This document shows, in pieces, positions 2,253 to 51,718 of a stretch of DNA of 64,000 nucleotides. A program made the translations under genes and the position numbers. The DNA is from Streptomyces sp. TN58 (lineage in GTDB: Bacteria; Actinomycetota; Actinomycetes; Streptomycetales; Streptomycetaceae): NCBI RefSeq assembly GCF_001941845.1, contig NZ_CP018870.1, forward strand, positions 7,478,001-7,542,000, in the 5' to 3' direction. Under the pieces are notes generated by a model that was not told where the DNA came from, did not search any database, and worked only from the letters and a program-made list of their open reading frames with translations. Position 1 is the first letter of the stretch; the number at the start of each line of letters is the position of its first letter.

Positions 2253-2331
2253 GGGCATGCTTCCTTGTCTGGACGGAGGAGGGGGGACCGGGACCAGGCC
2301 GGGCGAGCCGTGAAGAACGACGGGTGGGTTC

Positions 2332-2343
2332 GAGAGCGCTCTC
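2332..2343. promoter_or_regulatory. LacI/CebR-like operator upstream of the GH16 gene
   Basis: The perfect 12-bp palindrome GAGAGCGCTCTC lies about 80 bp upstream of the GH16 start. It closely resembles the Streptomyces CebR cellobiose-repressor box (core GAGCGCTC). A LacI-family repressor answering to a glucan oligosaccharide is the likely reader; this is inference from the motif and neighbour. Confidence 0.6.
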
Positions 2344-2349
2344 AAGCGT

Positions 2350-3205: not shown

Positions 3206-3811
3206 TCAGTGGACCATGAGACCGGTGGTGGTGATGTGAACGGTCTGGTTGTAGCCGACCGGTTCCTTGCCCTGCGAGACCTTCTCGCACTTGTACTCGG
3301 TCTTGCCGAAGGGAACGAGTACGGCCTTGGGGATGTCGTTGCACAAGGCGTAGTCGAGGGTGGAGTCGTTGCCGAACATGAGGCGTGCGACGCCGTCGCG
3401 GGTCACCAGGCCCTGGGCGGGGAAGGCCGTGTACTCCACGACGTTCTGGGACCAGCCCTTCTCGCCGATGGTCACGTTCCAGGCGACTTGCACGCCTTCA
3501 TAGGTGACGGTGCACGTGACCGTCGTACCCGGCTTGGACTCCATGTCCTTCGGGCACTCGCCGGTGAGCGCACCGGTGGCGTTGGCCATCGTGAGGGTCT
3601 TGCGCTGCAATTCGTAGATCACGTTCTCGGCGAAGGCGGCGTCGGCGGCCGGCGAGGCCGTCGGTTCGAGGCTTCCCATCTCCGGCTTCGTCAGCTTCTG
3701 CGGCAGCAGCGGACCTATCGGTTCCTGCTTCGCGCCGGTGCCGGTACCGCCGCCGCATCCGGTGGCCAGCAGGCACACGGCACCGAGCGCCGTGATGATC
3801 TTCATTCGCAT
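3206..3811 (-). CDS. Secreted lipoprotein, DUF4333-like
   Basis: A ~201-residue lipoprotein of unknown role. The N-terminus is a short basic signal peptide ending in a lipobox (LLATGC, lipidated Cys near residue 19), followed by a Gly/Thr/Pro-rich linker. The rest has two stretches (GECPKDMESKPGTTVTCTV and a C-terminal segment with two Cys) reminiscent of the DUF4333-type fold of actinobacterial lipoproteins, so it probably sits on the outer face of the membrane. ATG at 3811 has TAGGG about 8 nt upstream; an in-frame GTG at 3820 lies too close to that site. No operon partner is evident. The family assignment is tentative; the lipoprotein nature is clear. Confidence 0.75.
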   Translation of the reverse strand: MRMKIITALGAVCLLATGCGGGTGTGAKQEPIGPLLPQKLTKPEMGSLEPTASPAADAAFAENVIYELQRKTLTMANATGALTGECPKDMESKPGTTVTCTVTYEGVQVAWNVTIGEKGWSQNVVEYTAFPAQGLVTRDGVARLMFGNDSTLDYALCNDIPKAVLVPFGKTEYKCEKVSQGKEPVGYNQTVHITTTGLMVH

Positions 3812-3850
3812 TGCCGCCACCCTACCGGCGGCAGCACCCGCAGTTTTTGC

Positions 3851-4368
3851 TCATCGAGCAGCGCGTACCGCCGGCCGGCACGGCCACAGCGGCACCCGAG
3901 TGCCGGCGGCTTCACCGATCGCACCGAACGCCATGGGCGTGCCGATGCTGGGACGGACGGGCATGACCCTGGCGTTCGGGATGAGCCAGGCCCTGCGGGC
4001 CCCGCAGCCGTCACCGACGATCGCTGCGGTCATGGTGGTCCCGTGCCCATGGAAAACGTGCGGCGGACACTTCTCATCCGGGCGGCTGACCGGCGGCGGC
4101 TCCATGACCGAGACGCCCGGAGGGACCCTTCCCTCCAGCTCCGGAAGATCTTTGACGCCGCTGTCGATGGCGGCCCCCGTGATGCCGGCGCCGTCCGCCA
4201 CCTTCCACATCTCCCAGGCTCGTGTCTTCGCGACTACTCCGGCAGGTCGCTGTCGGCGGCGGCCGCCGGCACTGCCATGCCCGCCCAGACCCCGGCCGCG
4301 ACGACCATGGCCCCGCCGTACGCCACGACCCGCGTCGACGTACTTGCCGCAAGGTGCTGGTACGCCAT
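3851..4368 (-). pseudogene. Broken mycosin (subtilisin S8 protease of type VII secretion)
   Basis: In one frame from ATG 4368 there is a signal peptide (VVAAGVWAGMAVPAAAADS) that hits a TAG at 4234-4236. In another frame the protein resumes with the mycosin pattern: an EMWK-like stretch, the catalytic Asp context AAIDSGVKDLPEL and the catalytic His context HGHGTTMTAAIVG. The frame then runs out before any Ser catalytic region. The gene is therefore frameshifted and C-terminally truncated, lacking the nucleophile. Mycosins process type VII (ESX) secretion components, but no esx or ecc gene is visible nearby. It is most likely a relic of a lost secretion locus. Confidence 0.65.
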
Positions 4369-4432
4369 GCGGTGGCGCATCCCGTTGCACGCCGAACCGC
4401 CGACGAAACGGCGAGGATTTGCCCGTACCGCC

Positions 4433-4576
4433 TCAGGCGAGGGCGTAGACCACGATCATGAAGGTGAAGGTGATCGCACCCGCAGCGAGCAACACGGCAG
4501 CCACCGCCAAGACAGCCATGGCCACACGCTCCACACCGCGACGGTGGCCGGCAGGTTTCCACTGGCGCTGGTTCAT
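4433..4576 (-). CDS. Small single-pass membrane protein (hypothetical)
   Basis: A 47-residue protein: a basic N-terminus (MNQRQWKPAGHRRGVERV) followed by one long hydrophobic helix with no tail. The topology suggests an inner-membrane peptide. The ribosome binding site is weak (GCAGGC), and the gene sits immediately upstream of the mycosin relic on the same strand, so it may be a leftover of that locus. No family recognised. Confidence 0.4.
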   Translation of the reverse strand: MNQRQWKPAGHRRGVERVAMAVLAVAAVLLAAGAITFTFMIVVYALA

Positions 4577-4699
4577 GATCACAGCCTGCGGCAAGCGGCC
4601 CCCGACCGCATGAGTACGTGTACTCAAGTTCCCGAGGACCAGCCGGCCCGTCGAGTACCCGGCCGGTGGCCCCCGGGGCCGACCGCGTCAGGCCAGACC

Positions 4700-6910
4700 T
4701 CACGGGGCGGCCTCATTCCGGTCAGGAGACGGCCCGGGGGCTTGCGCACGCGTCAGGATGGAACGGCAGGTGCGCTGGATCTCCAGGTCGACGGCGATGC
4801 TCCATCCCCAGGGGCTTCCCCCACGGCGGGGCTGTACGAGCGCGGAGCGGACCTGGGGGAGGGCGGGGTGCGCTGCCCGGCCCATGCGGTTGAGGCAGGC
4901 GACGGCATGGCGTGCGGTGGAGTCGTTGTCCTTCCAGGCGGCCAGCAGCGCCGGGACGACGGCGGGGGCTTCGTCCTCCCCGCCGATGTCCCAGAGCGCT
5001 GACGCCACATGGACCAGGGTCCAGGAGTCGTTCAGCACGGCGGAACCGTCCTGCTCGTTTCGCGCGTTCTGTTCGAGTTGGTCGTTCAGCATCTGGCGCA
5101 GGCGCGGCAGCACGGCCGCGGCGGGAGGCCCGATCCGGCCGGCAAGGTTGACCGCGTCGGAGTTCCGCTTGTCGTCGAGGAGGCGTTGCAGCAGCGGAAC
5201 GACCTGCTCGGGACGGCGCTCAAGTTCCCAGACGGCACTGGTCGCGGCCGTACGAGTTCCCTGATCCTCCACCTCGGCGAGGGGGCGGACGGTCTCCAGG
5301 GCGGTGACGGCGCGGGGGCCGAACGATGCGAGCGCCTTCACGACGGGTGCGGCCGTGTGCCACTGCCCCCGCTGGACGGCGGCATTGACGGCGCCGATGA
5401 GCGCGGGCACGGCGGCCGGGTCGCCGAGTGCGGCGAGCGCAGAAGCGAGAGAGGTGGGACTGACGTCGGGCCATTCGCGGGAGGGGTCGATTCCGGCGAG
5501 GAGGCGGATGAGCCGGGGCGTGAGTTCCGCGGCGGCCTGGGGCATCAGGCGGGCCGCGTTCACGGCGCGCCAGGCGTCGATGCCGGTGTCCAGTGCGGTC
5601 AGCAGCCCGGGCAGGGCTCGCTCGTCGCCGAGTTCGGCGAGTGCCAGGACCGCCTGCTGGTGGGCGCGGCGCAGTTCGGCGTGGGGGCTGGCCCAGGCAT
5701 CCGGTCGTTGTGTGATGCGGTGGGTGGTGACGTAGTCGGCGAGGGCTTCCCGGGCCGGTTCGGCAAGCCGGCCCAAGGCCCCGAGCGCCTCGGCCGCAGC
5801 CGCCGACGTGTAGGAGTCGCGCGGCAGCAGGCACTCGGCGAGGAGCCGCACCAGAGGAGTGTGGTCTCCCCGCCAGGAGGTGATCAGCTTGCGTGCCATG
5901 TCGATCGCGTCGTACCGGGTGGCCGCATCCGGGCTGCGCAGCTGCTCGCAGAGCAGAGCGGCCCGGTCCTCGACACGCGCGTCGAGGACCTCGTGGAAGG
6001 TCACCAGCAGGGACGTGGTCGACGCGTGGACCCGGCCGCGGCGTTCGAGGTCGGCGAAGGCTGCCGCAACGTGCCCGGGAACACCAGGGCCCGGCCCGGC
6101 CTCGGGAGCACACGTGCACGGCCCCGTCGTCGACCCCGGGCTCACGTCTGCTTCCCCGCTCTCCTCGGGCAGGGACCTCGGCGTGATCCGTCGGAGGAGC
6201 CCGATCGCGGTGGGCACCGTGGTGGCGTCGATGGACTCGGGGACGCAGCGTGCCCGCTGCACGAGCGCCGCAAGACGGACATCGGCATCCACCGCCAAGC
6301 CGTCGGCGAGGAGATCGAACCATGCCCGCGCTGGTTCCCGAGCCGCCGGGAGCCGCAGCGCCAGATCGCCCATCGTCCTGATCACCAGCAGCCGCTCCAT
6401 GACACCGCCCCCGGCGTCGAGCCGGTCCCGAAGGACCCCTACCGCCCGCTCGGCGTCGTCCAGGAACAACCCCAGTCCCGCGATCGCGGCCGAACGCACT
6501 CGCGCGTCCGCATCACAGGCGTAGCCGACGAACACCTCGCCACGCCCGCGCACCAGCGCCGCGGCGTCCTGGTAGGCAGTGGTCTCCTCACCGTCGATGC
6601 CGATCCATACACCGCCCACCTCGTCCCGATCGACGGCTTCCCGGCCGATGCTCACGATCAGCGCGACCACCGACGCCCGATCAGGTGTGGAAGGGCTGTC
6701 GGCCATGTCGAACAGAAACGGCAGACTGGCCACCGTGCACGGATACACGTCCCCCTGATGATGGGCCGCGCCGTAGAAGCTGCCGAACGCCTTCTCCCGG
6801 ACCTCTTCATCGGGCGAAGCCATGCCGCGCAGCCATTGCGGAACATCACCGGCCGGCCCGTAGGCGTGGCCGAGGGACGCCCAGTCGATGCTTCCCAAGT
6901 CGTTGATCAT
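4700..6910 (-). CDS. HEAT-repeat protein
   Basis: A large (~736 residues) soluble protein built from repeated helical pairs of the HEAT/PBS-lyase type, seen as recurrent patterns such as PLVRLLAECLLP, ALGALGRLAEPAREALADY and VPALIGAVNAAV. There is no signal peptide, membrane segment or catalytic motif, so a cytoplasmic scaffold or binding role is the most that can be said. The start is uncertain: ATG 6910 gives a normal N-terminus, while an in-frame GTG at 6940 would add ten residues. Neither has a strong ribosome binding site. It is monocistronic, and the EEP gene on the other strand begins ~330 bp away. Similar HEAT proteins are common and uncharacterised in Streptomyces. Confidence 0.8.
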   Translation of the reverse strand: MINDLGSIDWASLGHAYGPAGDVPQWLRGMASPDEEVREKAFGSFYGAAHHQGDVYPCTVASLPFLFDMADSPSTPDRASVVALIVSIGREAVDRDEVGGVWIGIDGEETTAYQDAAALVRGRGEVFVGYACDADARVRSAAIAGLGLFLDDAERAVGVLRDRLDAGGGVMERLLVIRTMGDLALRLPAAREPARAWFDLLADGLAVDADVRLAALVQRARCVPESIDATTVPTAIGLLRRITPRSLPEESGEADVSPGSTTGPCTCAPEAGPGPGVPGHVAAAFADLERRGRVHASTTSLLVTFHEVLDARVEDRAALLCEQLRSPDAATRYDAIDMARKLITSWRGDHTPLVRLLAECLLPRDSYTSAAAAEALGALGRLAEPAREALADYVTTHRITQRPDAWASPHAELRRAHQQAVLALAELGDERALPGLLTALDTGIDAWRAVNAARLMPQAAAELTPRLIRLLAGIDPSREWPDVSPTSLASALAALGDPAAVPALIGAVNAAVQRGQWHTAAPVVKALASFGPRAVTALETVRPLAEVEDQGTRTAATSAVWELERRPEQVVPLLQRLLDDKRNSDAVNLAGRIGPPAAAVLPRLRQMLNDQLEQNARNEQDGSAVLNDSWTLVHVASALWDIGGEDEAPAVVPALLAAWKDNDSTARHAVACLNRMGRAAHPALPQVRSALVQPRRGGSPWGWSIAVDLEIQRTCRSILTRAQAPGPSPDRNEAAP

Positions 6911-7235
6911 GCCCGGCACTATGCCGGGCAGCACTGACACCTCGAAGCAATCGCTGGCCCCCCGATCTCGCCCGCCGCAGCTGTTGCCGCCGAGGCATCT
7001 GCAGTACCGCTCACCTGGAAGCCGTGGCGGAGGCGTTCGCGAACGACTAAGGCCAGGCAGCTTCCTTGGCCGCAGGGGATGGCCGCTTGAACCGGAGCAC
7101 TCCGCATGACCGATACCCAGCTGAAACGCAACTGCGGGCCCCGCGAAGGGGCCTCCTGACGCCCTGGAAGCCCGCCTCGCCGACGCTGTGCCGGTACCGG
7201 ATCACCGGCTTACGAGACACCGGAAGGCAGATGCC

Positions 7236-8291
7236 GTGCTGAGCACTCCGTACCGTTCCAAGGCCTCCAGGAAAGCGGAGCCGCCTGCCCCGCCTCCGCC
7301 TCCGTCCGCCATCCGCTGCCGCGTACGCGTGCCCACCGGCCGCGGCCTGCTGATCGCCGCCGGCGCGGTGTGCGCGGCCCTGACCATGGCCCTGCACACC
7401 TGGATCCCGAACGCGGCCGTCAACCTCGGCAGCCTGGTCCAGACCTTCCTGCCCTGGGCCGGCCTGAGCGTCCCCGTCCTCCTCGTGGCGGCGGCGGTAC
7501 GCCGCTCCCGGCTCGCCGCCGTCGCCGTCCTGGCCCCCGCGACCGTCTGGGCCTGCCTTTTCGGCGGGACCCTCGCCGACAAGCGAACCGAGCGAACCGA
7601 GCGAACCGAGCGAACCGAGCGGTCGGAGCGGTCCGGCGGCGGCCACTTCACCGTGGTAAGCCACAACGTGGACGAGGACAACCCCGATCCGGCGCGGACC
7701 GCGCGAGCCCTCGCCGCATCGGGCGCGGACGTGCTGGCCCTGCAGGAGATGTCCTCGAAAGCCACGCCCGCCTACGAGCGCGAGCTCGCCGCCGGCTATC
7801 CGTACAGCTCCGACACCCTCGGCGTCAGACTGTGGAGCAAGCACCCGCTGAACGGCGTGGAAGCGGTGCCGATCATGCCGTGGACGCGAGCCGTACGAGC
7901 CACCGTCGAGACCCCCCACGGCCCCGTCGCGGTCTTCGCCGCCCACCTCGCTTCGGTACGCCTGACCCCCGACGCCGGATTCACCACCGACCGCCGCAAC
8001 GATGCCGCCCGGAAGCTGGCCGCGGCCGTACGGGCGGAGCCGCTGGCCCGGGTCGTCGTGATGGGTGACTTCAACGGGACGGCGGACGACACGGCTTTGC
8101 GACCGGTGACCTCCCAGCTGACCTCCGCACAGCGCGAGGCGGGCGCCGGCTTCGGCTTCACCTGGCCCGCTCCGTTCCCCCTGGTCCGCATCGACCAGAT
8201 CCTGGTGAAGGGGATGAGCACGACCTCCTCGTGGACCCTCCCCGCTACCGGCAGCGACCACCTCCCCGTCGCGGCCTCCCTCCGGCTGTGA
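7236..8291 (+). CDS. Membrane-anchored endonuclease/exonuclease/phosphatase family protein
   Basis: A 351-residue protein with three hydrophobic segments in the first ~110 residues, a short charged linker, then an EEP (DNase I-like) domain. The four diagnostic blocks are all present: SHNVDED, LALQEM, MGDFNGT and GSDHLPV. They supply the metal-binding Glu and the catalytic His/Asp residues. The family cleaves phosphodiesters or phosphomonoesters; in this Streptomyces architecture the domain probably faces outward, though the substrate is unknown. GTG 7236 has AAGG 8 nt upstream; an in-frame GTG at 7188 is weaker. The linker contains a 9-bp tandem repeat encoding Arg-Thr-Glu units. A two-component system follows 40 bp downstream. 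Confidence 0.85.
   Translation: MLSTPYRSKASRKAEPPAPPPPPSAIRCRVRVPTGRGLLIAAGAVCAALTMALHTWIPNAAVNLGSLVQTFLPWAGLSVPVLLVAAAVRRSRLAAVAVLAPATVWACLFGGTLADKRTERTERTERTERSERSGGGHFTVVSHNVDEDNPDPARTARALAASGADVLALQEMSSKATPAYERELAAGYPYSSDTLGVRLWSKHPLNGVEAVPIMPWTRAVRATVETPHGPVAVFAAHLASVRLTPDAGFTTDRRNDAARKLAAAVRAEPLARVVVMGDFNGTADDTALRPVTSQLTSAQREAGAGFGFTWPAPFPLVRIDQILVKGMSTTSSWTLPATGSDHLPVAASLRL
7583..7618 (+). repeat. Four tandem 9-bp repeats inside the EEP gene
   Basis: GCGAACCGA is repeated four times without interruption and keeps the reading frame, encoding repeated Thr-Glu-Arg in the linker between membrane segments and the EEP domain. It is a likely site of length variation by slippage in whole-codon units. 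Confidence 0.9.
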
Positions 8292-41152: not shown

Positions 41153-41254
41153 CCAGCGAAAGCGCTAAATACCCGGCCTTGGGCCCTGACCCGGATTTTG
41201 GACACCGGAGAGACTTGGATCTTGATGGTCCAGGAGAACGGAGTCCCTGTGGGG

Positions 41255-41560
41255 ATGAAGCACTATCCCGCCGAGTTCAAGGCGGACGCGGTCGCGTTGT
41301 ACCAGTCGCGGCCGGGAGCGACGATCAAGTCCGTCGCCGCTGACCTCGGGGTGAACACCGAGACGCTGCGGAATTGGATCCGGGCCGCTGACGGGCGCCG
41401 TTCCGGTGCCCACTCTACGCCCCCGGCCGCTGCGCAGTCCGGTGGTGACGCCGTCCAGGCGGAGTTGGCTGCCGCCCGGAAGAGGATTCGTGAGCTGGAG
41501 GAGGAACGCGACATCCTCCGCAAGGCGGCCCGGTATTTCGCAGGGGAGACGCGCTGGTGA
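41255..41560 (+). CDS. IS3-family transposase orfA
   Basis: A 101-residue protein with the IS3 OrfA helix-turn-helix (KSVAADLGVNTETLRNWIRA) and a leucine-zipper-like C-terminus (AARKRIRELEEERDILRKAA). It overlaps orfB by GTGA at 41557, the usual junction at which OrfAB fusion is made by frameshifting. Complete, but useless without an intact orfB. ATG 41255 is chosen; an earlier GTG at 41198 is possible. Confidence 0.85.
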   Translation: MKHYPAEFKADAVALYQSRPGATIKSVAADLGVNTETLRNWIRAADGRRSGAHSTPPAAAQSGGDAVQAELAAARKRIRELEEERDILRKAARYFAGETRW

Positions 41561-41941
41561 ACCGCTGCCAGTTCGTTGACGATCACCAGCGCCGGTTCGG
41601 TGTGAAGCGGCTCTGCGACCTCCTCAGGATCGCCCGCTCGAGCTTCTACTACTGGCGCCGCACCGCGGCCGCGCGGACGGCCCGGCAGGCCGCCGAGGCC
41701 GGGCTCGCGGCCCGGATACGCAAGGTCCACGAGGAATCCGACGGCACCTACGGCGCCCCCAGGATCACGGCCGAGCTCCGCGACGAGGGCGAACGGATCA
41801 ACCACAAGCGGGTCGCGAGGATCATGCGGACCATCGGGATCGAGGGGGTCCGTCTGCGTCGTCGGCACCGGACCACCGTCGCGGACCCGGCCGCGACGAA
41901 AGCGCCGGACCTGGTCGGCCGTGACTTCACCGCGGCCGAGG
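41557..41941 (+). pseudogene. IS3-family transposase orfB, truncated
   Basis: Begins NRCQFVDDHQRRFGVKRLCD, then HEESDGTYGAPRITAELRDE and GRDFTA, the N-terminal helix-turn-helix/linker part of OrfB. The rve integrase core that should follow (DITY and the DDE residues) is missing; reading past 41941 gives the reverse complement of ku. Confidence 0.85.
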
Positions 41942-41944
41942 TGA

Positions 41945-42179
41945 ACACTCTTCGTGGTGGTCTTCTTGGCCGGTGCCTTCTTCGCGGCCTTCTTCTTCGG
42001 CGCCGGCATCTCGTGCACGGTCGCCTCAGCCCCGGCCTTGTCGTCGGTCTCGCCGCGCAGCTCGCGGGCGTGGGCGACGGACTTCTCCAGCGCGGCCATC
42101 AGGTCCACGACCGGGGCCGTCGCCGCCTCCTCATCGTGGGCCGGGGCAGCCGGTGCTCGGCCTTCGCCGCGATGACCTC
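41945..42179 (-). pseudogene. ku: C-terminal fragment of ku (NHEJ protein)
   Basis: Reads EVIAAKAEHRLP, then after a one-base shift APAHDEEAATAPVVDLMAAL, a helix and the Lys/Ala tail KKKAAKKAPAKKTTTKS. This is the variable basic C-terminus of actinobacterial Ku, which binds broken DNA ends and recruits ligase D. The core beta-barrel ring is absent on the 5' side (the match begins right after an in-frame TAA at 42180), and the 3' side is cut by the IS3 junction. Non-functional. Confidence 0.75.
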
Positions 42180-42389
42180 TTAGTGCCCGGGCTGGAACCT
42201 CCAATCAGTCGGACCCCATAGTCGAATCCGAGCCAATTCACCCCCTGCCCAAAATCGATCAGGCATGCGAAGAAGCGGTCCGCCTATGCCTTGCCTGAGC
42301 AAGAGGTGTGAGCGTACCCACGGCGGGGGGCTCGACCCTACTCGCTGGTTCAACTGACGCAAAAGACACCATAGTTGTTCAACGCCATT

Positions 42390-42419
42390 TAATATGACGG
42401 CCTGTGCCAGTGGCACAGG
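42390..42419. promoter_or_regulatory. Putative promoter/operator of the OLD-SbcCD locus
   Basis: In an AT-richer leader (42180-42497, no gene) a TAATAT hexamer is followed 6 bp later by a perfect inverted repeat CCTGTGCCA-g-TGGCACAGG (42401-42419), ~80 bp before the OLD start. A repressor site overlapping a promoter is the simplest reading. No regulator gene is adjacent. GTTCAAC also occurs twice, 27 bp apart, just upstream. Confidence 0.45.
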
Positions 42420-42497
42420 TGCCTCATCAGCATCCGCGCTTGCCGCACGCCACGCCTCTGTCCGCTCTGGACGGGGAGATACGGAGCAGCTCCTCCC

Positions 42498-44327
42498 GTG
42501 TATCTCGACAGCTACTCCGCGCGCGGTTTCCGCTCCCTAGCCCAGGTGACGGACATCCCGGTCAGCGGGCCCACCGTCCTGGCCGGCCGCAACGACGGCG
42601 GCAAGAGCGCGGTGCTGACCGCGCTGGCTTTTCTCCTCGGCACCCACCGCCTGACCGACGAAGACCGCACCTATGTGCAGGACGAGGAGGGCTCCAAGGG
42701 GCGGCGGTGCGCCGAAACCTGGGTGGAGGGCCAGTTCCGGCTGGACGCCGAGGAACAGGCCCACAGCGGGCTTGGCGAATGTGTGCGTATCCGTCGGCGC
42801 TCGCTGCTGGGGGAGGCGACCTGCCTGGAGTATTTCGGCAGCCAGCCCGCCGACCCGCAGTTGCGTGACCTGGGCCGACTGCTCAAACCGGCGCTGACGG
42901 CGCTTGTTGCCGAATACGGGCTGTCCCCGGCAGGAAACCTCAAGGAGGATCTGCTGGCAGAGCTGAGGGCACACGCCAGGACGCTGCCCCAGGACGAAGG
43001 GTGGCAACCGCTCCCCAAGACACTCGAGGAACGACTCCCGCAGCTTTTGTCGTTCGGTGGGAAGGACGAGAGCCCCGACGACGCCGTGCGCACCGCTTTG
43101 AGTAGCAGCTACAAGACGCACCTGGAGGACGAGACTCTTCAGGGCCGCGTCCGGGAGATCGAGGGAGAGATCACCCAGCGGCTGGAGAAGGAAGCCGACT
43201 CCCTGTGCCTCCACATCCGCCAGCACTGCGCCGAATACGTCAGCGTAAACGTGAAACCCCTGGTCTCCTTCAAGGGAGGCTTCCAGGGCGCCCCGCTGCA
43301 CGTCTCAAGAGCGGACGGCGAACCTGTCGACCTGACGCGCGCCGGGCAGGGCAGCACACGCCGTATCGCCCTGGCGGTATGGGAGTGGACCAGCAACCTC
43401 CTGGAGAACGCCGAACTGGCCGCCTCGGCAGAACAGGGAAACACCCAACCTACGCAGACCATCGTGGTCTACGACGAGCCCGACACCCACCTTGACTACC
43501 GCCACCAGCGCACGGTCATGGACATCATCCGCAAGCAGTGCGCCCTGCCCCACGTCAGCGTCATGGTCGCCACCCACTCGATGAACCTCATCGACGGCGT
43601 CGACATCGCCGATGTCGTCCACCTGAGCCTTGGACCTGGCGGGCGCACCGTCGTCGAACGGCTCGATGACGATCAGCACGACGGGATTGATTTCCACCTG
43701 GGCCAGATCGCGGCATCGCTGGGTCTGCGCAACTCCGTCCTGCTCCACGAGCGCTGCTTCCTGGCCGTCGAGGGCGACACAGAACAAAAGAGCCTGCCGC
43801 TGCTATTCCGCCTGGCCCAGAACATGTCCCTCCAGGCAGCAGGTATCGCCCTGTGGGGTTGCGAGAACAACGAGGGAGCCCTGCACCTGGCCCGCTACCT
43901 CGTCAAACATCAACGCACAGTGATGCTGATGGTGGACGCAGACAGCCGCACCAACAAACTCTTCAAAGACGAACGCCTCCGGCGCGCCGGTCTCGACCTC
44001 GAAAAGCACGTCTCCTACGTCGGAGAAGCCGACGGCTACAACGAGCTGGAAGAACTCTTCAGCGACGAGCAGTGGGCCACTGCCGCCAACACCCACTGGC
44101 CTCGCCCGGCCCCGCAGACCTGGCAAGCCCACGACTTCACGGCTCACCGCGACGGCAAGAAATTCAGCGCCCGTATCCTCGACATGATCCAAAACCAAGC
44201 CGGAAACAACAGCCCCAACGGCAAACCCGCCATGGTCTACGGGCTGGCCAGCACCCTCACCACGGCCCAGGACGTGCCCCGGCAGCTACGGGACATCTTC
44301 ACCCACCTGCAAGAACTCGCTCACTGA
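42498..44327 (+). CDS. OLD-family ATPase with TOPRIM nuclease domain
   Basis: A 609-residue protein of the overcoming-lysogenization-defect class. Residues ~1-390 are an ABC/SMC-like ATPase: YSARGFRSL start, Walker A GRNDGGKSAVL (~30-40), a signature-like TRAGQGSTRR, Walker B TIVVYDEPDTHLD and the H-loop VMVATHSMNL. The C-terminal part is a TOPRIM nuclease with the acidic motifs FLAVEGDTEQKSLP (~420) and MLMVDADSRT (~475). OLD nucleases nick or cut DNA and serve in phage defence (P2 Old, GajA of Gabija). Here it heads a cluster with SbcD, SbcC and a helicase, not a UvrD-like GajB. GTG 42498 is chosen; a GGAG lies 11 nt upstream. All motifs look intact. Confidence 0.85.
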   Translation: MYLDSYSARGFRSLAQVTDIPVSGPTVLAGRNDGGKSAVLTALAFLLGTHRLTDEDRTYVQDEEGSKGRRCAETWVEGQFRLDAEEQAHSGLGECVRIRRRSLLGEATCLEYFGSQPADPQLRDLGRLLKPALTALVAEYGLSPAGNLKEDLLAELRAHARTLPQDEGWQPLPKTLEERLPQLLSFGGKDESPDDAVRTALSSSYKTHLEDETLQGRVREIEGEITQRLEKEADSLCLHIRQHCAEYVSVNVKPLVSFKGGFQGAPLHVSRADGEPVDLTRAGQGSTRRIALAVWEWTSNLLENAELAASAEQGNTQPTQTIVVYDEPDTHLDYRHQRTVMDIIRKQCALPHVSVMVATHSMNLIDGVDIADVVHLSLGPGGRTVVERLDDDQHDGIDFHLGQIAASLGLRNSVLLHERCFLAVEGDTEQKSLPLLFRLAQNMSLQAAGIALWGCENNEGALHLARYLVKHQRTVMLMVDADSRTNKLFKDERLRRAGLDLEKHVSYVGEADGYNELEELFSDEQWATAANTHWPRPAPQTWQAHDFTAHRDGKKFSARILDMIQNQAGNNSPNGKPAMVYGLASTLTTAQDVPRQLRDIFTHLQELAH

Positions 44328-44518
44328 TCCGGCGCCGACCGCCGTGCACGACGCGCCCGCATACGCTCTTTGCGCTGCTCGTCCGTCGGCGTCTGCCACA
44401 CATGCCAGCCAACCGATTCCACCCATTGGCGAGCATGGATCCGAGCATCGATCCCACACCACCTGCACCCCCCCGGCGAGGGAACGCAGGCAGCACGAGC
44501 AGACCTTGGAGAGGGCAT
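44321..44518 (-). CDS. Small zinc-ribbon-like protein, antisense inside the cluster
   Basis: A 65-residue basic protein with the potential metal site C-x2-C-G (GGCRWCGIDARIHARQW) followed by VGWHVWQTPTDEQRKERMRA and a second Cys further N-terminal. This pattern recurs in small Streptomyces phage or plasmid proteins that look like half HNH or zinc-ribbon domains. ATG 44518 has AAGGAGGAG directly upstream, one of the best sites in the window. It ends 7 bp inside the 3' end of the OLD gene and is divergent from sbcD, so it splits the cluster. Function unknown. Confidence 0.65.
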   Translation of the reverse strand: MPSPRSARAACVPSPGGCRWCGIDARIHARQWVESVGWHVWQTPTDEQRKERMRARRARRSAPDQ

Positions 44519-44597
44519 CTCTCCTCCTTCCCACGCTCTCCATCTTCCCTGCGAGCACTGACAATCACGCTGAGCGACAAAGCCGAGGTGTAAGCGC

Positions 44598-45797
44598 ATG
44601 AGGTTTCTCCACACATCCGACTGGCACCTGGGCCGCCGGTTCCACACAGAAGACCTGATCCCCGCCCAGCGTGCCTTCCTCGACCACCTGGTCGACACTG
44701 CCCGAACCGAGGATGTCGACGCGATCCTTGTCGCAGGAGACATCTACGACCGGGCCATCCCCAGCCTGGACGCCGTGCGCCTGTTCAACCGCGCTCTGCA
44801 CCAGCTCGCCGACCTCGGCGTGCCGATCATCATGATCAGCGGAAACCATGACTCCGCGCACCGCCTCGGCGTCGGATCCGGGCTCCTCGCCCGTGCCGGG
44901 ATCCACTTGAGGACTGACCCGGACACCTGCGACATCCCGGTCCTCTTCGACGACGCCGACGGCCCCGTCGCCATGTACGGCATCCCCTACCTCGAGCCGT
45001 CGATGGTCCGCGACCGCCTGGAAGCCGAAGCCGTCTCCCACCGCGCAGTACTGACCGCAGCCCTGGACCGCATCCACGCCGACCTCACCAACCACCAGCC
45101 GGCCGGTACCCGGTCAGTGGTCCTTGCGCACGCCTTCGTCACCTCCGGCACCGGACAGCCCGAGGAACGCGATGAGAGCCAAGAGTCCACCAGCGAACGC
45201 GAAATCGCCGTGGGCGGTGTCGCACACGTAGGCTCCGACGTCTTCGACGGGATCGACTACGTGGCCCTGGGCCACCTCCACGGCCCCCAGCGTGTCACCG
45301 ACCGCATCCACTACAGCGGCTCCCCGCTGGCCTACTCCTTCTCCGAAGCCCGCCACACCAAGTCGATCACCCTTGTCGACCTCACCCCCAATGCCGTTCC
45401 CGCCCTCACCCGCCAGCCCTGCCCTGTGCCTCTCCGCCTGGAACGTGTGTCCGGCTTCATGGAAGACCTCCTGACCAATCCCGACCACGAGCCGCTGAAG
45501 GATGCCTGGCTCGAGGTCACCCTCACCGACACGGCCCTGCCCTTCGAGGCCATGGCCCGCCTGCGCCGCCGCTTCCCCCACACCGCCAGCCTCAGGCACA
45601 AGCCCGCCTTTATACCCTCCCAGGCCACGAACACCCCCACTTACAGTCAGCGCATCCGGGGCCGCGGCGACCTCGACATCGCCAGCGATTTCATCAGCAG
45701 CATGCGCGGAACCGACCCCACACCGGACGAACACGCTCTGCTACAGCAGGCGGTCGAAGCCTCCCGCCTGAACGAGCAGCAGAAGGAATCCGTCTGA
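44598..45797 (+). CDS. sbcD: Exonuclease subunit SbcD (Mre11-type)
   Basis: A 399-residue metallophosphoesterase nuclease. The Mre11 motifs appear in order: HTSDWHLGRRFH, VAGDIYDRAIPS, MISGNHDSAHRLG, VLAHAFVTSG and VALGHLHGPQ, giving the two-manganese site. The C-terminal ~120 residues are the capping and SbcC-binding region. With SbcC it forms an ATP-gated nuclease that trims DNA ends, opens hairpins and removes protein-blocked termini. ATG 44598 has GAGGTG 8 nt upstream, and sbcC starts one base after its stop, so the two are coupled. Streptomyces usually have one housekeeping sbcDC pair; whether this is that pair or an extra defence copy cannot be told from the window. Confidence 0.95.
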   Translation: MRFLHTSDWHLGRRFHTEDLIPAQRAFLDHLVDTARTEDVDAILVAGDIYDRAIPSLDAVRLFNRALHQLADLGVPIIMISGNHDSAHRLGVGSGLLARAGIHLRTDPDTCDIPVLFDDADGPVAMYGIPYLEPSMVRDRLEAEAVSHRAVLTAALDRIHADLTNHQPAGTRSVVLAHAFVTSGTGQPEERDESQESTSEREIAVGGVAHVGSDVFDGIDYVALGHLHGPQRVTDRIHYSGSPLAYSFSEARHTKSITLVDLTPNAVPALTRQPCPVPLRLERVSGFMEDLLTNPDHEPLKDAWLEVTLTDTALPFEAMARLRRRFPHTASLRHKPAFIPSQATNTPTYSQRIRGRGDLDIASDFISSMRGTDPTPDEHALLQQAVEASRLNEQQKESV

Positions 45798-45798
45798 C

Positions 45799-48700
45799 AT
45801 GCGCTTGCACACCCTGCGCCTGCAGGCATTCGGACCCTTCGCCAGCACCCACACCATCGACTTCGACGCACTATCCGCCGACGGCCTGTTCCTCCTGCAC
45901 GGCGACACCGGAGCGGGCAAGAGCACCATCTTCGCGGCCATCTGTTTCGCTCTCTACGGCAAACCACCGGGCGACCGCGACCTGCTGCTGCGCAGCCACC
46001 ACGCTCCCGCTGGCCTCCTGACCGAAGTCACCCTCGAAGTCACTCTTGCAGGGCGCCGCCTGCGCATCGACCGGATCCCCGCCCAGATGCGCCCCAAGCG
46101 ATCCGGTGAAGGCGAGACCTCCCAGAAAGCAGAAACCCGGCTCAGTGAATGGGCCGTCGACGCCGACGGGCAGGGCCGCTGGGAACCTTCCAGTAAGTCC
46201 CACCAAGAAGCAGCCGTCGAGGTCACTGACCTGCTGGGCATGAGCCGGGAGCAGTTCTGCCAGGTCGTCCTGCTGCCGCAGAACGAATTCACCAAGTTCC
46301 TCCACGCAGACGCCCACGGCCGACGAGAACTCCTCGGCAAACTCTTCCGCACCGGTCGCTTCTCCTTCATCGAGCGCTGGCTGAACGACCACAGCCGCAC
46401 CACCGAGAAGAACCGCGACGCCACCCGCGCCGACGTGCTGCGCCTAGCCGAACGTATCCACCAGGCAGCCGGACCCGACCTGGAAACCGAGTACACGGCG
46501 CCCACCCCCGACGACCCGAACACGCTCACCGAGCCCGCCCGCGCCTGGGCCCAGGATCTCCTCCGCGTCAGCCACACCGACCACGCCAGGACACTCCAAG
46601 CAGCCACAACGGCCAAGGAGAACCTGGCCAGACAGCAGACCTTCGAAGCCGCGGCCCGCGAACTCCACCAGCAGCAAACCACCTACACCAGCGCACGGCA
46701 GCAACTCGACCTGCTCCAGGAACAGACACCGCACCAGGACACACTCATCCAGCGCCGCGACCAAGCCCGCCGCGCCCAACAGGCAGCACCACTGCTGCAC
46801 GCCGCGGACACCGCCGCACACGACCACACCCGTGCCCAGAGCGTTGAACGCAGCGCCCGCGAGCGCCTGTTGCCCGAACACAAGGACCTTGACGCCAGCC
46901 GGCTGGAAACCGCCGAGCATCGTCTTCGCGCCGAAGCTGCCATCCTGACCACCCTCATCCCCGAAGAAGACACCGTCCGCCGGCTGACCACCGAGCTGGA
47001 GCGCACCGACGCCGAACGGCAGGACTTCGCCACCCAGCAACGCACAGCCCAGGACTGGCTCGAAGCCGAGCCCGCCCGGCGCGGCGCCCTCGAAGCCCGG
47101 CGAGAAGCCGCCCGCCAGGCCGAAGAAGAAAGCCGCCGCCACCAGACCGCCCTGGACGGCCTCAAAACCCGCCTCGAAGCAGCCAGGCGCCGCGACACGC
47201 ATCTCGCCAAGGTCACCAAGGCCGAACAGCAGCTGGCCGATGCAGAAGCGGTCACCGGCCAGACCGGCCAGGACTACCTGACCATCCGCCGCCGGCGCAC
47301 CGAAGGCATGGCCGCCGAACTTGCCGCCACCCTCACCGACGGCACGCCCTGCCCGGTCTGCGGATCCTGTACCCACCCGGCGCCCGCCGCTGCCCAGGAC
47401 GGGCAGCCCACACGCCAGGACGAGCAGGACGCGGAAGCCCTCCACGAGCAGGCCAAGACCACCCAGAAAGCCGCCGCGGCCGTGCTGCACGGGCTCCGCG
47501 AACAGGCGGCCACCGCCGCCGGTGAAGCCGGCGACACCCCCCTGACCGACCTCCAGACCCAGCACACCACGCTCACCACGGAGTTGACCGACGTCCTGGA
47601 CCGCGCTGCAGACCAGGGCACCGTCCAAGAAGAACTCCTCGCACTCGACGGCGAGCACACGGCCCAGACCCAGCAACACAGCACCGCCACGGCCGGCCTG
47701 TCCGCCCGCAACGCCCACTACGACACCCTCACCCAGCAGCTCACCGAGCTGACGGCCAAGCTCACCGCGGCCCGCGGCACCTATCCCACTGTCGCCGCCC
47801 ACGCCGACGACCTCACCCGCACCGCCCACCGCCTCAAAGAGACCGCCGAGGCCTCCCGCAGCCTCGCCGCCGCCGTCCAGACCCTCGCGCACCGCACCGA
47901 CCAGGCCACCCTCGCCGCCAAGGACCAGGGCTTCGACACCCTGGCACTCGCCCAGCAGGCCCTGCTCAACGACGAAGACCTGCGCGCCATAGAAGAAGAG
48001 ATCACTCAGTGGCGCGAGGCATGTGCCGCGCACACCGCAGTCCTGGACAACCCGGCACTGCAGCAGGCCGCCGCACAGCCTTCCGCCAACCTCGACGCCG
48101 CCACGGCTGCAAGGGCCACCGCGGATGACCAGCACGCCGAGGCCGCCGCCGCCGCCAGTGCCGCCCACACCCGCAGCCAGGCCCTCACCGCCCTTGCCGC
48201 CAACCTCGGCACCGCCATCCAGCGCCTGCAACCGCTCGAGCAGGCGCACCTCACCGCCCGCCACCTGGCCGAACTCGTCACCGGCAACTCACCCAGCGCC
48301 CGGGTGCGCATGCAGCTGGAGGCCTACGTCCTGGCAGCCCGCCTCGAAGAAGTCGTCACCGCCGCCAACACCCGCCTGCACATCATGTCCGAAGGCCGCT
48401 ACAACCTCTCCCACTCCGATCACCAAGCCGCCCGCGGCGCCCGCTCCGGCCTCGGACTGGAGATCACCGACTCCTGGACCGGCCGTCCCCGCAAGACCGA
48501 CACACTCTCCGGCGGCGAATCCTTCTTCGCCTCCCTGTCCCTCGCCCTTGGCCTGGCCGACGTCGTCACCCACGAAGCCGGCGGCAACCCCCTGGACACT
48601 CTCTTCATCGATGAAGGCTTCGGCACTCTCGACGAAGACACCCTCCACAAGGTCCTCGATGTCCTGGACTCCCTGCGTGCCCACGACCGCACCGTCGGCG

Positions 48701-48807
48701 TCATCAGCCACGTCCCCGAACTGCGCCGCCGCATCACTCACCGCCTGCACGTCCGTAAAAGCCCCGCTGGATCCACCCTCGCCCACCTGACCGAAGCAGC
48801 CGAATAA
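45799..48807 (+). CDS. sbcC: Exonuclease subunit SbcC (Rad50-type ATPase)
   Basis: A 1,002-residue SMC-like ATPase. The N-terminal lobe carries Walker A in LLHGDTGAGKSTIFAAI (~35-50) and the Q-loop region (CQVVLLPQNEFTKFLHAD). Two long coiled coils of Ala/Glu/Gln/Arg follow, joined by a zinc hook TPCPVCGSCTHP near residue 517. The C-terminal lobe has the ABC signature TLSGGESFFASLSLALG (~902), Walker B LDTLFIDEGFGTLDED and the switch His in VISHVPEL. It powers and gates SbcD; the hook dimerises complexes across DNA ends. It appears intact despite the many indels nearby. A helicase remnant follows 70 bp downstream. Confidence 0.95.
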   Translation: MRLHTLRLQAFGPFASTHTIDFDALSADGLFLLHGDTGAGKSTIFAAICFALYGKPPGDRDLLLRSHHAPAGLLTEVTLEVTLAGRRLRIDRIPAQMRPKRSGEGETSQKAETRLSEWAVDADGQGRWEPSSKSHQEAAVEVTDLLGMSREQFCQVVLLPQNEFTKFLHADAHGRRELLGKLFRTGRFSFIERWLNDHSRTTEKNRDATRADVLRLAERIHQAAGPDLETEYTAPTPDDPNTLTEPARAWAQDLLRVSHTDHARTLQAATTAKENLARQQTFEAAARELHQQQTTYTSARQQLDLLQEQTPHQDTLIQRRDQARRAQQAAPLLHAADTAAHDHTRAQSVERSARERLLPEHKDLDASRLETAEHRLRAEAAILTTLIPEEDTVRRLTTELERTDAERQDFATQQRTAQDWLEAEPARRGALEARREAARQAEEESRRHQTALDGLKTRLEAARRRDTHLAKVTKAEQQLADAEAVTGQTGQDYLTIRRRRTEGMAAELAATLTDGTPCPVCGSCTHPAPAAAQDGQPTRQDEQDAEALHEQAKTTQKAAAAVLHGLREQAATAAGEAGDTPLTDLQTQHTTLTTELTDVLDRAADQGTVQEELLALDGEHTAQTQQHSTATAGLSARNAHYDTLTQQLTELTAKLTAARGTYPTVAAHADDLTRTAHRLKETAEASRSLAAAVQTLAHRTDQATLAAKDQGFDTLALAQQALLNDEDLRAIEEEITQWREACAAHTAVLDNPALQQAAAQPSANLDAATAARATADDQHAEAAAAASAAHTRSQALTALAANLGTAIQRLQPLEQAHLTARHLAELVTGNSPSARVRMQLEAYVLAARLEEVVTAANTRLHIMSEGRYNLSHSDHQAARGARSGLGLEITDSWTGRPRKTDTLSGGESFFASLSLALGLADVVTHEAGGNPLDTLFIDEGFGTLDEDTLHKVLDVLDSLRAHDRTVGVISHVPELRRRITHRLHVRKSPAGSTLAHLTEAAE

Positions 48808-48878
48808 CCTGCACCCTGACAGGGCGGGGCGCCTTGTCCGCCCCCGTCCAGCCGAACTCCACGGAGCAGCACACCTTC

Positions 48879-49240
48879 ATGGCTTCCGATATCGAGCTGC
48901 GGCCCCACCAGAAGGAAGCCGTCGCCGCCGCGACCGCCACGTTCCGCGATTACGCCCGCGCGAGCGTGATCGCGGCCTGCGGCACCGGCAAGACCCTCAT
49001 TGCCGCCCGTACCACCGCCCGTATTGCCCCCCCGTGGCCGTGTGCTGGTGCTGCTGCCGACAGTGGACCTGCTGTCGCAGACGATCCGTTCCTGGCGTCT
49101 GGCCGGCCGCAAGGGCACCACTGTGGCGGTGTGCTCGGCCCGCCAGGCCCTCGACCACGAACCGGTCGGCACCGACATCCCGCTGACCACCGACCCCGCC
49201 GAACTGACCGCCCTCACCGCCGGCGACGCGACTGTCGGCG
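48879..49240 (+). pseudogene. Superfamily 2 helicase, frameshifted N-terminal fragment
   Basis: Starts MASDIELRPHQKEAVAAATA with a Q-motif-like RPHQ and Walker A in SVIAACGTGKTLIAA. An extra C in the C7 run at 49027-49033 shifts the frame. In the next frame it continues RGRVLVLLPTVDLLSQTIRS (motif Ia region) and AVCSARQALDHEPVGTDIP, then ends around GDATVGVL before the DEAD/DEAH motif. The remaining ~500 or more residues expected of this type III restriction/defence-like helicase are gone, replaced by unrelated DNA and IS21. It lies in the same direction as sbcC, so it was probably the last gene of the cluster. Confidence 0.75.
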
Positions 49241-49341
49241 TACTCGTGAGAGTGCTCAACCCAGTACGGAGATCTGTGCACCAATCCTTGCCGCCGAAGC
49301 CGCTTCAGGGAGCGAGTAAGGTCCCGTCGAAAGGGGGCGTC

Positions 49342-49529: not shown

Positions 49530-50303
49530 TCAGGCTGCGTCGTTGCGGTCTCGTTCGATGGCGGCCAGCCGGTTCTTGAGGCGGTAGCTGTTGCCGTTGA
49601 TGGAGACGACCTCGCAGTGGTGCAGGAGCCGGTCGAGGATTGCAGTGGCGAGGACTTCGTCGCCGAAGACCTGGCCCCATTCGCCGAAGGTCTTGTTCGA
49701 GGTGAGGATGATCGAGCCCTTCTCGTAGCGCTTGGAGATGACCTGGAAGACCAGGTTGGCCTCGGTTCGCTCGAGTGGCTGGTAGCCGACTTCGTCGACC
49801 ACGAGGACCGCGGGGCGGAGGTAGCTGGTGAGCTTGCTCATCAGCCGGCCCTGGTCCTCGGCGGCCTTGAGGTGGCGGACCATGTCGTCGAGGCTGGTGA
49901 AGTAGATCGAGTAGCCCGCTCGGCATGCCGCGACCGCGAGTGCGACGGCGATGTGGGTCTTGCCGACACCGGGTGGCCCGAGCAGGGCGACGTTGGCCTT
50001 GTCCTCAACGAAGGACAAGGTGGCCAGGTCCTTGACCTTGCGCGGGTCGAGTTCGGGCTGGAACGAGAAGTCGTAGTCCTCGATGGTCTTGTGGTGCGGG
50101 AGCTTCGACAGCCGCAGGCCGTTGCGGAAGCGGCGGTCGTCACGGACCGCAAGTTCCTCGGAGAGGACCAGGTCAAGCAGGTCGAGGTAGCCCATCTTCG
50201 CCTCGTCGGCCCGCTGGATGTAATGGCTCAGGGCTTCGGCCAGGTGCGGCAGCCCGAGGCGGGTGGCGGTGGTGCGGATGCGGGTGCTGGTCAGCTCGCT
50301 CAA
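49530..50303 (-). CDS. istB: IS21 helper ATPase IstB
   Basis: A 257-residue AAA+ ATPase related to DnaC. Walker A is ALLGPPGVGKTHIAVALAVA (~105-120), Walker B PAVLVVDEVGYQPL (~170), and the sensor region is GSIILTSNKTFGEW. It assembles on target DNA and stimulates the IstA transposase. Start codon overlaps the istA stop by 4 bp, the typical coupling. Full length for the family. Confidence 0.93.
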   Translation of the reverse strand: MSELTSTRIRTTATRLGLPHLAEALSHYIQRADEAKMGYLDLLDLVLSEELAVRDDRRFRNGLRLSKLPHHKTIEDYDFSFQPELDPRKVKDLATLSFVEDKANVALLGPPGVGKTHIAVALAVAACRAGYSIYFTSLDDMVRHLKAAEDQGRLMSKLTSYLRPAVLVVDEVGYQPLERTEANLVFQVISKRYEKGSIILTSNKTFGEWGQVFGDEVLATAILDRLLHHCEVVSINGNSYRLKNRLAAIERDRNDAA

Positions 50304-51718
50304 CGGGCGTCCTTGGTCGGGGCGGGCGGATTGAAAGGCCGGGTGCCGGTCAGCTCGTCATAGACCGACAGCGGGCGGCGGCCGACCTCGACGTGAGCGG
50401 CGGCAGACCTGCTGAGAAGAGCCTGCAGCGGTCCGGTCTGCGAACCTGTCGGCCGGCCGCGGCGGGGAGAAGGCAGAGCGTCGCCAGTGGTGACACGGCG
50501 GCCGGCGCCGGTGGGCAGACCGTCCCAGTGCGTCTCGTCGACGACGTGGGCTCCGCGGCCGACTGCCCGCGCATGAACGGCCAGCAGCGTCAGCCCGCCA
50601 GCATCGGGGACGGTGGAATGCAGACTGACCTGCGATTTCGTCGCCCGGACCTCGACCAGCTGGCGAGGGCGGACCTTGCGGGCGGGCACCGAGTAGAGGT
50701 TCGCATCGAAAGCAACCAGACAGTCCTTGCCGACGTGCCGCAGATGCCGCTGGGCAACCACATACGGAGTTCCCGGCAGTGGCCGCAGGGCTGTGTGATC
50801 GCGAGCGGCCCGATGGCCGATGACCTCGCCGTGGGTGGAATGGACCTTCGCCCGCCGCAACGGCACCCAAGCCGCGAAGGCGGCGTTCATCTCCTCGAGC
50901 GAGGAGAAGGCCCGGCCCGCCAGGACATGATCGCGGACGATGTTCACCTGGCGCTCGACCCTGCCCTTGCCCTGCGGCCGGTAGGCCGCCAGCACGTCGA
51001 TGTCGTAGTCGTAGTGGCCGGCGAACGCGACCGCCTCCGGATGCAGCGGAACGGCCTCACCCGGGGCGACGTGCCGGCGCACGACCGTCTTCGTGCGGTC
51101 GTAGACGATGCTCATCGGCACCCCCGCGAAGTGCGCGAAGGCCTGGCGGTGGCAGTCGAAGAACGTCGCGAGATCCTGGCTGGTGGTGAAGCAGCAGAAA
51201 GGATCACGCGAGTACGACAGCGTCATATGGAACGAGTAGACCTTCGGGATCCCGACATGAGCGAGGACCCTGCCCTCATCACCCCAGTCGACCTGGGCCT
51301 GAGCACCGGGAACCACCTCGAAACGCCGGTGCAGACCCGCCAGCTCGCCCGGGCTGATACCCAACTCCTCCGCGATCCGCGGCCGGGCCTCCTGCAGATA
51401 GATCTTCACCCGCTGGTAGTTGATCGCGACCCCGTAATCCGCGACCAGGCGCTCGTGGATCACCGACCCCTTCAGGAGCACCTCGGACCTGAGCATCGCG
51501 TCGATGAGAGGCGCGATCTCGTCCACGACCCGCCGCGGCTGACGGCCATCGGACTCCCGCCTGGGCAGCCCCGCCGACGCCGGATTCTTCAGATACTTGC
51601 TGACCGTCCGCCGGTTCAGCCCGGTCTCCTTCGCGATCTCCCGCAGGCTCATCGCACCAGACGCATACAGCGGGCGGAACCGCCTCAACTCCAGCCAGCG
51701 ATGTGGGTCCAAGACCAC
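50300..51718 (-). CDS. istA: IS21 transposase IstA
   Basis: A 472-residue DDE transposase. The N-terminal helix-turn-helix is SLREIAKETGLNRRTVSKYL; the rve core begins at VPGAQAQVDWGDEG with the first catalytic Asp, followed by MSIVYDRTKTVV and the catalytic Glu in GKGRVERQVNIVRDH. A beta-barrel and a C-terminal basic tail follow. GTG 51718 is the likely start. Slightly shorter than some family members, but no lesion seen. Confidence 0.92.
   Translation of the reverse strand: MVLDPHRWLELRRFRPLYASGAMSLREIAKETGLNRRTVSKYLKNPASAGLPRRESDGRQPRRVVDEIAPLIDAMLRSEVLLKGSVIHERLVADYGVAINYQRVKIYLQEARPRIAEELGISPGELAGLHRRFEVVPGAQAQVDWGDEGRVLAHVGIPKVYSFHMTLSYSRDPFCCFTTSQDLATFFDCHRQAFAHFAGVPMSIVYDRTKTVVRRHVAPGEAVPLHPEAVAFAGHYDYDIDVLAAYRPQGKGRVERQVNIVRDHVLAGRAFSSLEEMNAAFAAWVPLRRAKVHSTHGEVIGHRAARDHTALRPLPGTPYVVAQRHLRHVGKDCLVAFDANLYSVPARKVRPRQLVEVRATKSQVSLHSTVPDAGGLTLLAVHARAVGRGAHVVDETHWDGLPTGAGRRVTTGDALPSPRRGRPTGSQTGPLQALLSRSAAAHVEVGRRPLSVYDELTGTRPFNPPAPTKDAR

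Follow-up and report, generated by a model that had tools for sequence, protein, structure and literature searches.

Introduction

OLD nucleases act in several defence systems (PMC10568477), one archaeal class of them acts in the cell cycle (PMC12796447), and their classes 1-5 are defined largely by genomic context (PMC10568477, PMC12796447). The SbcCD (Mre11-Rad50) nuclease cleaves DNA close to hairpins and to ends blocked by protein (PMC6265447), and hairpin telomeres that lack protection are attacked by Mre11-Rad50 (PMC12624138). In Streptomyces sp. TN58 both kinds of nuclease meet in one gene cluster, in which an OLD gene is followed by sbcD, sbcC and a broken gene for a superfamily 2 (SF2) helicase of the HA type, with insertion sequence (IS) elements flanking both sides. 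The cluster lies in a stretch of 64,000 nucleotides (NZ_CP018870.1, positions 7,478,001 to 7,542,000), the whole of which is called the window below and corresponds to G000:C1:43035-107034, minus strand, in our genome set. From sequence comparison, we tentatively read the cluster as a horizontally moving accessory module of the Streptomycetaceae, directed against phages or plasmids and working on DNA ends, and give this reading a probability of roughly 0.45.

Gene content of the cluster

The following features make up the cluster, with coordinates counted from the first letter of the window.

42498-44327, + strand: OLD-family ATPase-TOPRIM nuclease, 609 amino acids, GTG start, assigned from domain matches and motifs
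44321-44518, - strand: small gene, 65 amino acids, CxxC-H-H motif, 3' end overlapping the final OLD codons
44519-44597, no strand: gap of 79 bp between the divergent starts of the small gene and sbcD, from coordinates
44598-45797, + strand: SbcD-like (Mre11) nuclease, 399 amino acids, TIGR00619 at 169 bits (cut-off 77.65)
45799-48807, + strand: SbcC-like (Rad50) ATPase, 1002 amino acids, zinc hook CPVC, TIGR00618 at 245 bits
48880-49248, + strand: 5' fragment of an HA-type SF2 helicase gene, frame change near 49032, remainder absent

The first-pass annotation had reported OLD, sbcD, sbcC and a helicase fragment lying in one direction, all of which were found at these positions; it had missed the antisense small gene, the part most tightly tied to OLD. 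The gap between the small gene and sbcD is a putative shared promoter region of the two.

The OLD protein matched AAA_15 (E 3e-15) in the Pfam protein scan, and OLD-like_TOPRIM with 22.0 bits, just under the cut-off of 23.2, rising to 26.4 bits and above it in the genome scan. Its motifs GRNDGGKS, VVYDEP, VEGDTE and MVDAD correspond to an ATPase and a TOPRIM domain with acidic residues, as expected for the OLD family. Likewise, SbcD shows the phosphoesterase motifs and SbcC the Walker A/B, signature and zinc-hook motifs of an SbcCD (Mre11-Rad50) pair, with an SbcC score that falls under the TIGR00618 cut-off of 478.5 bits. Every motif searched for in the three proteins (ATPase, TOPRIM, phosphoesterase, zinc hook, signature) was found. 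An AlphaFold model of OLD (predicted local distance difference test, pLDDT, 82) had PtuA, an OLD nuclease and GajA as its best fold matches in Foldseek, which we counted for defence; the matches include PtuA, Thermus scotoductus OLD, GajA and retron Eco8, with query template-modelling scores of 0.34 or less among the matches listed.

The helicase was described earlier as lost from this copy, which may thereby be disarmed; the loss agrees with our comparison with an intact 755-amino-acid relative by tblastn. Only residues 6-123 remain, with residues 6-52 at 48891-49031 (85%) and residues 53-123 in another frame at 49033-49248 (60%), so that the window copy represents an N-terminal part without the HA domains. 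The intact relative (L005, 26568-28835) comprises DEAD/ResIII, Helicase_C and four HA domains, and the intact relatives in L005 and L053 both combine the DEAD/ResIII motor with HA domains and are thereby of the HA type (TtrA-like).

A small antisense gene accompanies OLD

The small gene is preceded by GGAGGAG ahead of its ATG at 44518 and encodes a conserved core, GCRWCG..H..W..GWH.W..PT. Among 30 sequences, substitutions by codon position amounted to 0.24/0.27/0.54 and thus fell mostly on the third. It was found convergent (tail-to-tail) with OLD at 55 of 55 OLD 3' ends, with or without sbcDC, at distances of 0-104 bases, counted up to where the match ends; L069, in which OLD lacks its 3' half, has no small gene and stands outside the 55. 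Because it is kept at the OLD 3' end when SbcDC is absent or head-to-head, the small gene belongs with OLD. In six further Streptomyces plasmids outside the neighbourhood counts, it lies just beyond OLD in five by coordinates, while the small match listed for the sixth (NZ_CP108821) lies near the other end of the record (annotation only). The most distant OLD match, on a Haloferax plasmid (25%), came without a small-gene match.

The small protein had no Pfam match and a single chance-level match in NCBIfam, and its structural model was poor (pLDDT 63, 6 sequences) and was not used. PHROG 20506, a family of unknown function, matched it at 1e-16. Since only 3 predicted small proteins, out of 5 word-sharing candidates, were contained in a large protein set, the gene is seldom called; the nr set held one entry (P0123), and the gene table, incomplete and for one record empty, showed no gene under 11 OLD-linked plasmid matches.

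Homologues of the small protein also occur away from OLD matches, in pZL12 and other plasmids, many of about 90 kb (up to about 100 kb). In a set of 150 Streptomyces genomes, 20 had a small-gene match, 11 of them without an OLD match; the stretches around these 11 contained no OLD among the top four matches, three stretches being too short to show neighbours. The small domain is therefore not exclusive to OLD. Individual homologues without an OLD match were recorded at L207 5995-6204 (pZL12.85) and in plasmids H199, H201, H203 and H208-H211, and such lone plasmid homologues possibly represent counter-defence or a shared regulator. An OLD relative (40%) with a convergent small gene is also encoded at L208 8001-9960, on a contig of fecal origin that bears the label Bacteriophage sp. 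(MT835746, unverified) and has 69% guanine plus cytosine (G+C); judged from its G+C alone, this contig is perhaps actinobacterial DNA.

Conserved order of the cluster in relatives

Relatives of this OLD are sporadic, being found in 22 of 392 Streptomyces genomes (E 1e-40), 32 of 394 genomes of the family and 4 of 394 of the class (E 1e-30), one of these four outside the family. In an OLD tree, a clade A of about 60% identity or more was separated with a branch support of 100/100 and covers 23 loci including named plasmids and contigs; 10 of the 22 OLD-bearing Streptomyces genomes belong to it (at least 72% identity in that search). To compare neighbourhoods, up to 20 kb was read per stretch, and more in the case of some named records. 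Within clade A, 19 of 23 loci agree in both the order and the orientation of OLD, SbcD and SbcC, with L057, L010, L120 and L169 as exceptions, and such recurrence argues against a chance assembly. These 19 are not all independent, as L052, L053 and L063 are near-identical, and they include a decayed locus (L138), one with a truncated OLD (L063), one cut by the contig end (L004) and one with a broken SbcC (L119). By comparison, SbcDC occurs, head-to-head, in 3 of the 14 loci of clade B (50-56%), which is also found in other actinomycete families, and in none of the 18 loci of clade C (36-42%, one split copy 49%).

The helicase gene extends this arrangement: of the 24 accessory SbcDC loci that could be read, 17 have an HA helicase on the strand of SbcC and no more than 2 kb behind it, a count that includes the window fragment and some partial genes and excludes L004, where the contig ends within sbcC. 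Intact four-gene clusters, as sought following the first-pass annotation, were found in L005, L003, L054 and L056; the S. laculatispora plasmid NZ_CP120993 is an example of a replicon with an intact cluster.

A separate housekeeping sbcCD is located at 1.12 Mb in the TN58 genome, sharing 42% (SbcC) and 57% (SbcD) identity with the cluster copy. An SbcD tree of 38 proteins placed 14 housekeeping copies on one side of a branch with support 99/98 and the cluster SbcD outside. Searching 15 OLD-bearing genomes revealed an accessory SbcD in 13, and all 13 of these have a second SbcD as well. Across 150 Streptomyces genomes, a further SbcD was present in 5 of 5 carriers of clade-A OLD vs 2 of 145 others (Fisher 3.5e-8, uncorrected for relatedness); these two are G128 and G052, the latter with SbcD-SbcC-helicase without OLD about 20-27 kb from the end of a chromosome-sized contig. 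In addition, the trees show clade-A OLD split into two sub-branches, which pair with two branches of SbcD. The possibility that the cluster is the sole sbcDC copy, or a chance neighbour of OLD, as which the first-pass annotation had allowed it might turn out, is ruled out by the conserved order and the second SbcD.

Position relative to replicon ends

The genome consists of one contig, a linear chromosome of 7,585,034 bp, and SbcC, SbcD and OLD are present in identical copies at both of its ends, about 58-65 kb inward. As the outer 160 kb are identical at both ends with zero mismatches (as assembled), the cluster lies within a terminal inverted repeat that is 160 kb long or longer, a setting that the first-pass annotation had missed. 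Furthermore, HA domains are found in a single open frame of 864 amino acids located 1.7-2.6 kb from both chromosome ends and pointing inward, so terminal HA helicases are still present at both ends despite the fragmentary helicase of the cluster. From its position and direction, this frame is probably ttrA, known as a terminal, inward-transcribed helicase gene required for SLP2 conjugation (PMC8743542). At G000:C1 13866-15409 (L071), likewise near the chromosome ends, we noticed tandem-like repeats that are about 80-85% identical.

On plasmids the bias toward ends is clear. OLD lies within 20 kb of an end in 9 of 11 Streptomyces plasmid records (combined P 1.3e-6 vs uniform placement), the Haloferax record (25% identity) having been left out of 12 matched. 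On chromosomes the bias is weaker and not strict: on contigs above 5 Mb, whose ends are not in every case replicon ends, 8 of 19 copies of the family lie within 65 kb of an end, compared with 0 of 14 control genes, namely the other OLD-like TOPRIM genes of these 18 genomes (Fisher 0.01), while 11 of the 19 lie 111 kb to megabases inside. The TN58 genome and G108 were counted once each, though both ends carry a copy, and G381 is a partial gene. Including G542, left out as lying outside the family and 2.47 Mb inside, changes the result to 8 of 20 (P 0.011). The control omits three genes on contigs below 5 Mb. Two of these are located close to a contig start, at 4 and 45 kb (G362:C2), and the contrast weakens to P 0.07 if both are counted as terminal.

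Streptomyces telomeres are capped by terminal proteins and folded back, and for this reason are plausible SbcCD substrates. A module serving linear replicon ends is the main alternative, though an unlikely one, to which the first-pass annotation had given no thought: SbcDC and the HA helicase would act in the processing of protein-bound telomeres or folded 3' overhangs, or would promote transfer of linear plasmids, alongside the terminal ttrA-like helicase. Besides the plasmid and chromosome counts and the role of ttrA given above, it draws on two SbcDC-HA helicase sets without OLD near ends, that of G052 and that of L008, 6-12.5 kb from a plasmid end. Against it, 10 of the 19 copies on contigs above 5 Mb lie more than 120 kb inside, several by megabases, and the control is fragile as shown by the P of 0.07. 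The OLD family in just 22 of 392 Streptomyces genomes cannot therefore be a general telomere factor, and clade B extends to other actinomycete families. The end position is compatible with defence, because enrichment at the chromosome ends of Streptomyces is reported for both Lamassu and Wadjet, 31% of Lamassu falling in the outer 1% (PMC10482375).

Two further observations concern linear replicons. The linear plasmid NZ_CP108363 has an SbcC annotated as split at its left end (3471-6490) and as whole at its right end (678317-681337). The linear replicons of Kineococcus radiotolerans were considered as a parallel and set aside, one sbcC only being named in the available part of the source.

Mobile DNA and defence genes in the surroundings

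Mobile or decayed DNA on both sides of the cluster, as stated in the first-pass annotation, was substantiated by the following features, the IS names having been assigned in this analysis from Pfam matches to IstB_IS21, Mu-transpos_C_2 and HTH_21.

41198-42183, + strand: IS3-type transposase pieces, upstream
about 41917-42181, - strand: C-terminal tail fragment of Ku, antisense, abutting the IS3-type pieces, matching genes annotated Ku (H19, H20)
49530-51718, - strand: IS21-type istB/istA, downstream

The open reading frame (ORF) of the Ku tail is without a Pfam match, and the tail (41917-42181, -) can be read as a relic of an accessory gene for non-homologous end joining (NHEJ). This fragment adjoining the cluster, the intact SbcCD motifs and the multiple Ku/NHEJ-like genes known from Streptomyces (PMC5124664) would all suit an accessory set for double-strand-break repair, in which a second Mre11-Rad50, a helper helicase and OLD raise the end-processing capacity in the manner of the extra Ku genes of Streptomyces arms. 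We consider this improbable in view of the sporadic and partly plasmid-borne distribution and the second SbcD already present in carriers, and the OLD systems reviewed in PMC10568477 are defensive.

TniA/TniB/TniQ-like genes adjoin or lie near OLD at L007 7589-11059, L009 5978-9376, L010 14379-16761 and L131 3157-7253, three of these four loci being close to linear plasmid ends, and occur in parts in L126, L128, L132 and L138. A TniABQ-like transposon was rejected as the general vehicle because such genes are absent near most loci.

Known defence genes occur around several loci. SbcDC-helicase of L008 lies between Wadjet genes and Gabija, LmuA and LmuB (Lamassu) lie about 4 kb upstream of OLD in L054, and Wadjet JetD stands beside the helicase in L126. 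A PADLOC scan of 64 flanking ORFs, which yielded family counts pooled over loci, also matched JetC1, RmrA, PD-Lambda-3_B and RNaseH_pPIWI_RE; one of 65 listed ORFs (RHS-like, L005:322-8313) had been left out of the alignment. Subsequently, 10 + 9 + 10 proteins, some outside the 64, were scanned singly. In L050, among the closest relatives of the window OLD, three large adjacent ORFs (702, 742, 952 amino acids; 59-8264) upstream of OLD had no PADLOC match.

A tentative model

For the preferred reading as an anti-phage or anti-plasmid module, we infer the biochemical steps, the division of labour and the biological target as follows. The module would consist of OLD and its convergent small CxxC-H-H protein, joined to the SbcD-SbcC-HA helicase unit. 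SbcCD would locate ends that are blocked by protein or closed by a hairpin and cleave them, and the helicase would open or translocate the DNA and feed the end. OLD would then cut or nick as an ATP-gated effector, with the small protein acting as a regulator that restrains or gates it.

Several results weigh against this reading. The heads of SMC, RecN and Rad50 rank close behind the best matches in the Foldseek search with OLD, so the fold is not specific to defence. In nine clade-A loci the divergence of OLD correlated with that of the housekeeping SbcD at r 0.65 and with that of the accessory SbcD at r 0.50; since OLD tracks the housekeeping protein at least as well, OLD and SbcDC need not form one machine. 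Throughout clade C and in most of clade B, OLD and the small gene occur by themselves, as SbcDC-helicase does in L008 and G052. Finally, 20 of the 29 neighbouring proteins scanned singly match no PADLOC model at 1e-10, and L008, the source of 4 of the 9 matches, is without an OLD of this family.

That OLD-small and SbcDC-helicase are two separate selfish or defence units, sharing an insertion hot spot at replicon ends and not cooperating, would agree with each being found alone, with SbcDC lying head-to-head and not downstream in 3 of 14 clade-B loci and with the weak co-divergence, yet is very doubtful given the fixed order in clade A and the paired sub-branches of OLD and SbcD.

Of the first-pass interpretation, the comparison supports a conserved accessory multi-gene nuclease cluster that is distinct from the housekeeping sbcDC and has here lost its helicase; anti-phage activity is a candidate function of it. 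A more specific version is a long shot: an Mre11-Rad50-helicase-OLD complex that might recognize the ends, folded or capped by protein, of competing linear plasmids and phages while being carried beside its own protected telomeres, with the zinc-finger-like small protein gating OLD and its lone phage and plasmid homologues serving as counter-defence. If true, it would found a sixth OLD class. With a mobile SbcCD-helicase-OLD set beside such ends, it becomes testable how linear replicons and Mre11-Rad50 nucleases coexist and why particular defence systems accumulate at the ends in Streptomyces. The small OLD partner, in turn, offers a concrete handle on the control of OLD nucleases.

Comparison with known systems

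Gabija, the class 2 OLD system (GajA-GajB), shares an OLD nuclease and a helicase gene in one cluster. However, GajB is a UvrD-like SF1 helicase next to GajA, whereas the helicase here is of the SF2 HA type and located behind sbcDC, and OLD has a small antisense gene at its 3' end. The window OLD scores 56 bits or less with GajA models. Membership in Gabija was rejected, as no GajB-like (UvrD/PcrA/Rep) neighbour was found and the genes downstream are sbcD, sbcC and the SF2 HA helicase.

Class 1 (P2 Old, Thermus scotoductus OLD) has in common the ATP-binding cassette (ABC) ATPase and TOPRIM domains; the Thermus protein is among the top fold matches, and the PADLOC Old model matches the window OLD at 67 bits. 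Its members are single genes (PMC10568477), and class 1, as a single gene without conserved partner, is ruled out by the small gene at 55 of 55 ends. With regard to class 3 (retron), no reverse transcriptase was present in ten proteins scanned around OLD, non-coding RNA not being searched. Class 5 (Cran1, Sulfolobales) was likewise defined through a new genomic partner, in that case a membrane protein with a cell-cycle role (PMC12796447). With its convergent small CxxC-H-H gene, this OLD falls outside all five OLD classes that we found described.

Lamassu resembles the cluster in that the window SbcC matches LmuB at 73 bits, and in its enrichment at Streptomyces ends (PMC10482375), but the window SbcC is full-length and adjoins SbcD. 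Membership was rejected with no LmuA match in the four cluster proteins (for OLD, among the best 25 of 71 families). The housekeeping SbcCD at 1.12 Mb, for all its identity to the cluster copy, is on the other side of the 99/98 branch, the cluster copy being coupled to OLD and the HA helicase. TtrA is also an HA-type SF2 helicase (41% identity between the cluster helicase of L005 and the terminal HA helicase of L007), from which the cluster helicase differs as a separate subtype downstream of sbcC. Archaeal HerA-NurA-Mre11-Rad50 likewise joins Mre11-Rad50 with a motor and a further nuclease, the motor and nuclease families being unrelated to those of the window cluster.

In the titles and listed abstracts of the open-access papers that our searches returned an OLD-SbcDC-HA helicase cluster was not named, and the words SbcC and Mre11 are absent from the main text, in the parts available, of the related comparative-genomics papers PMC12839542 and PMC10853773. 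The parts of the cluster are of known kinds, and their combination appears to be new as a genomic context.

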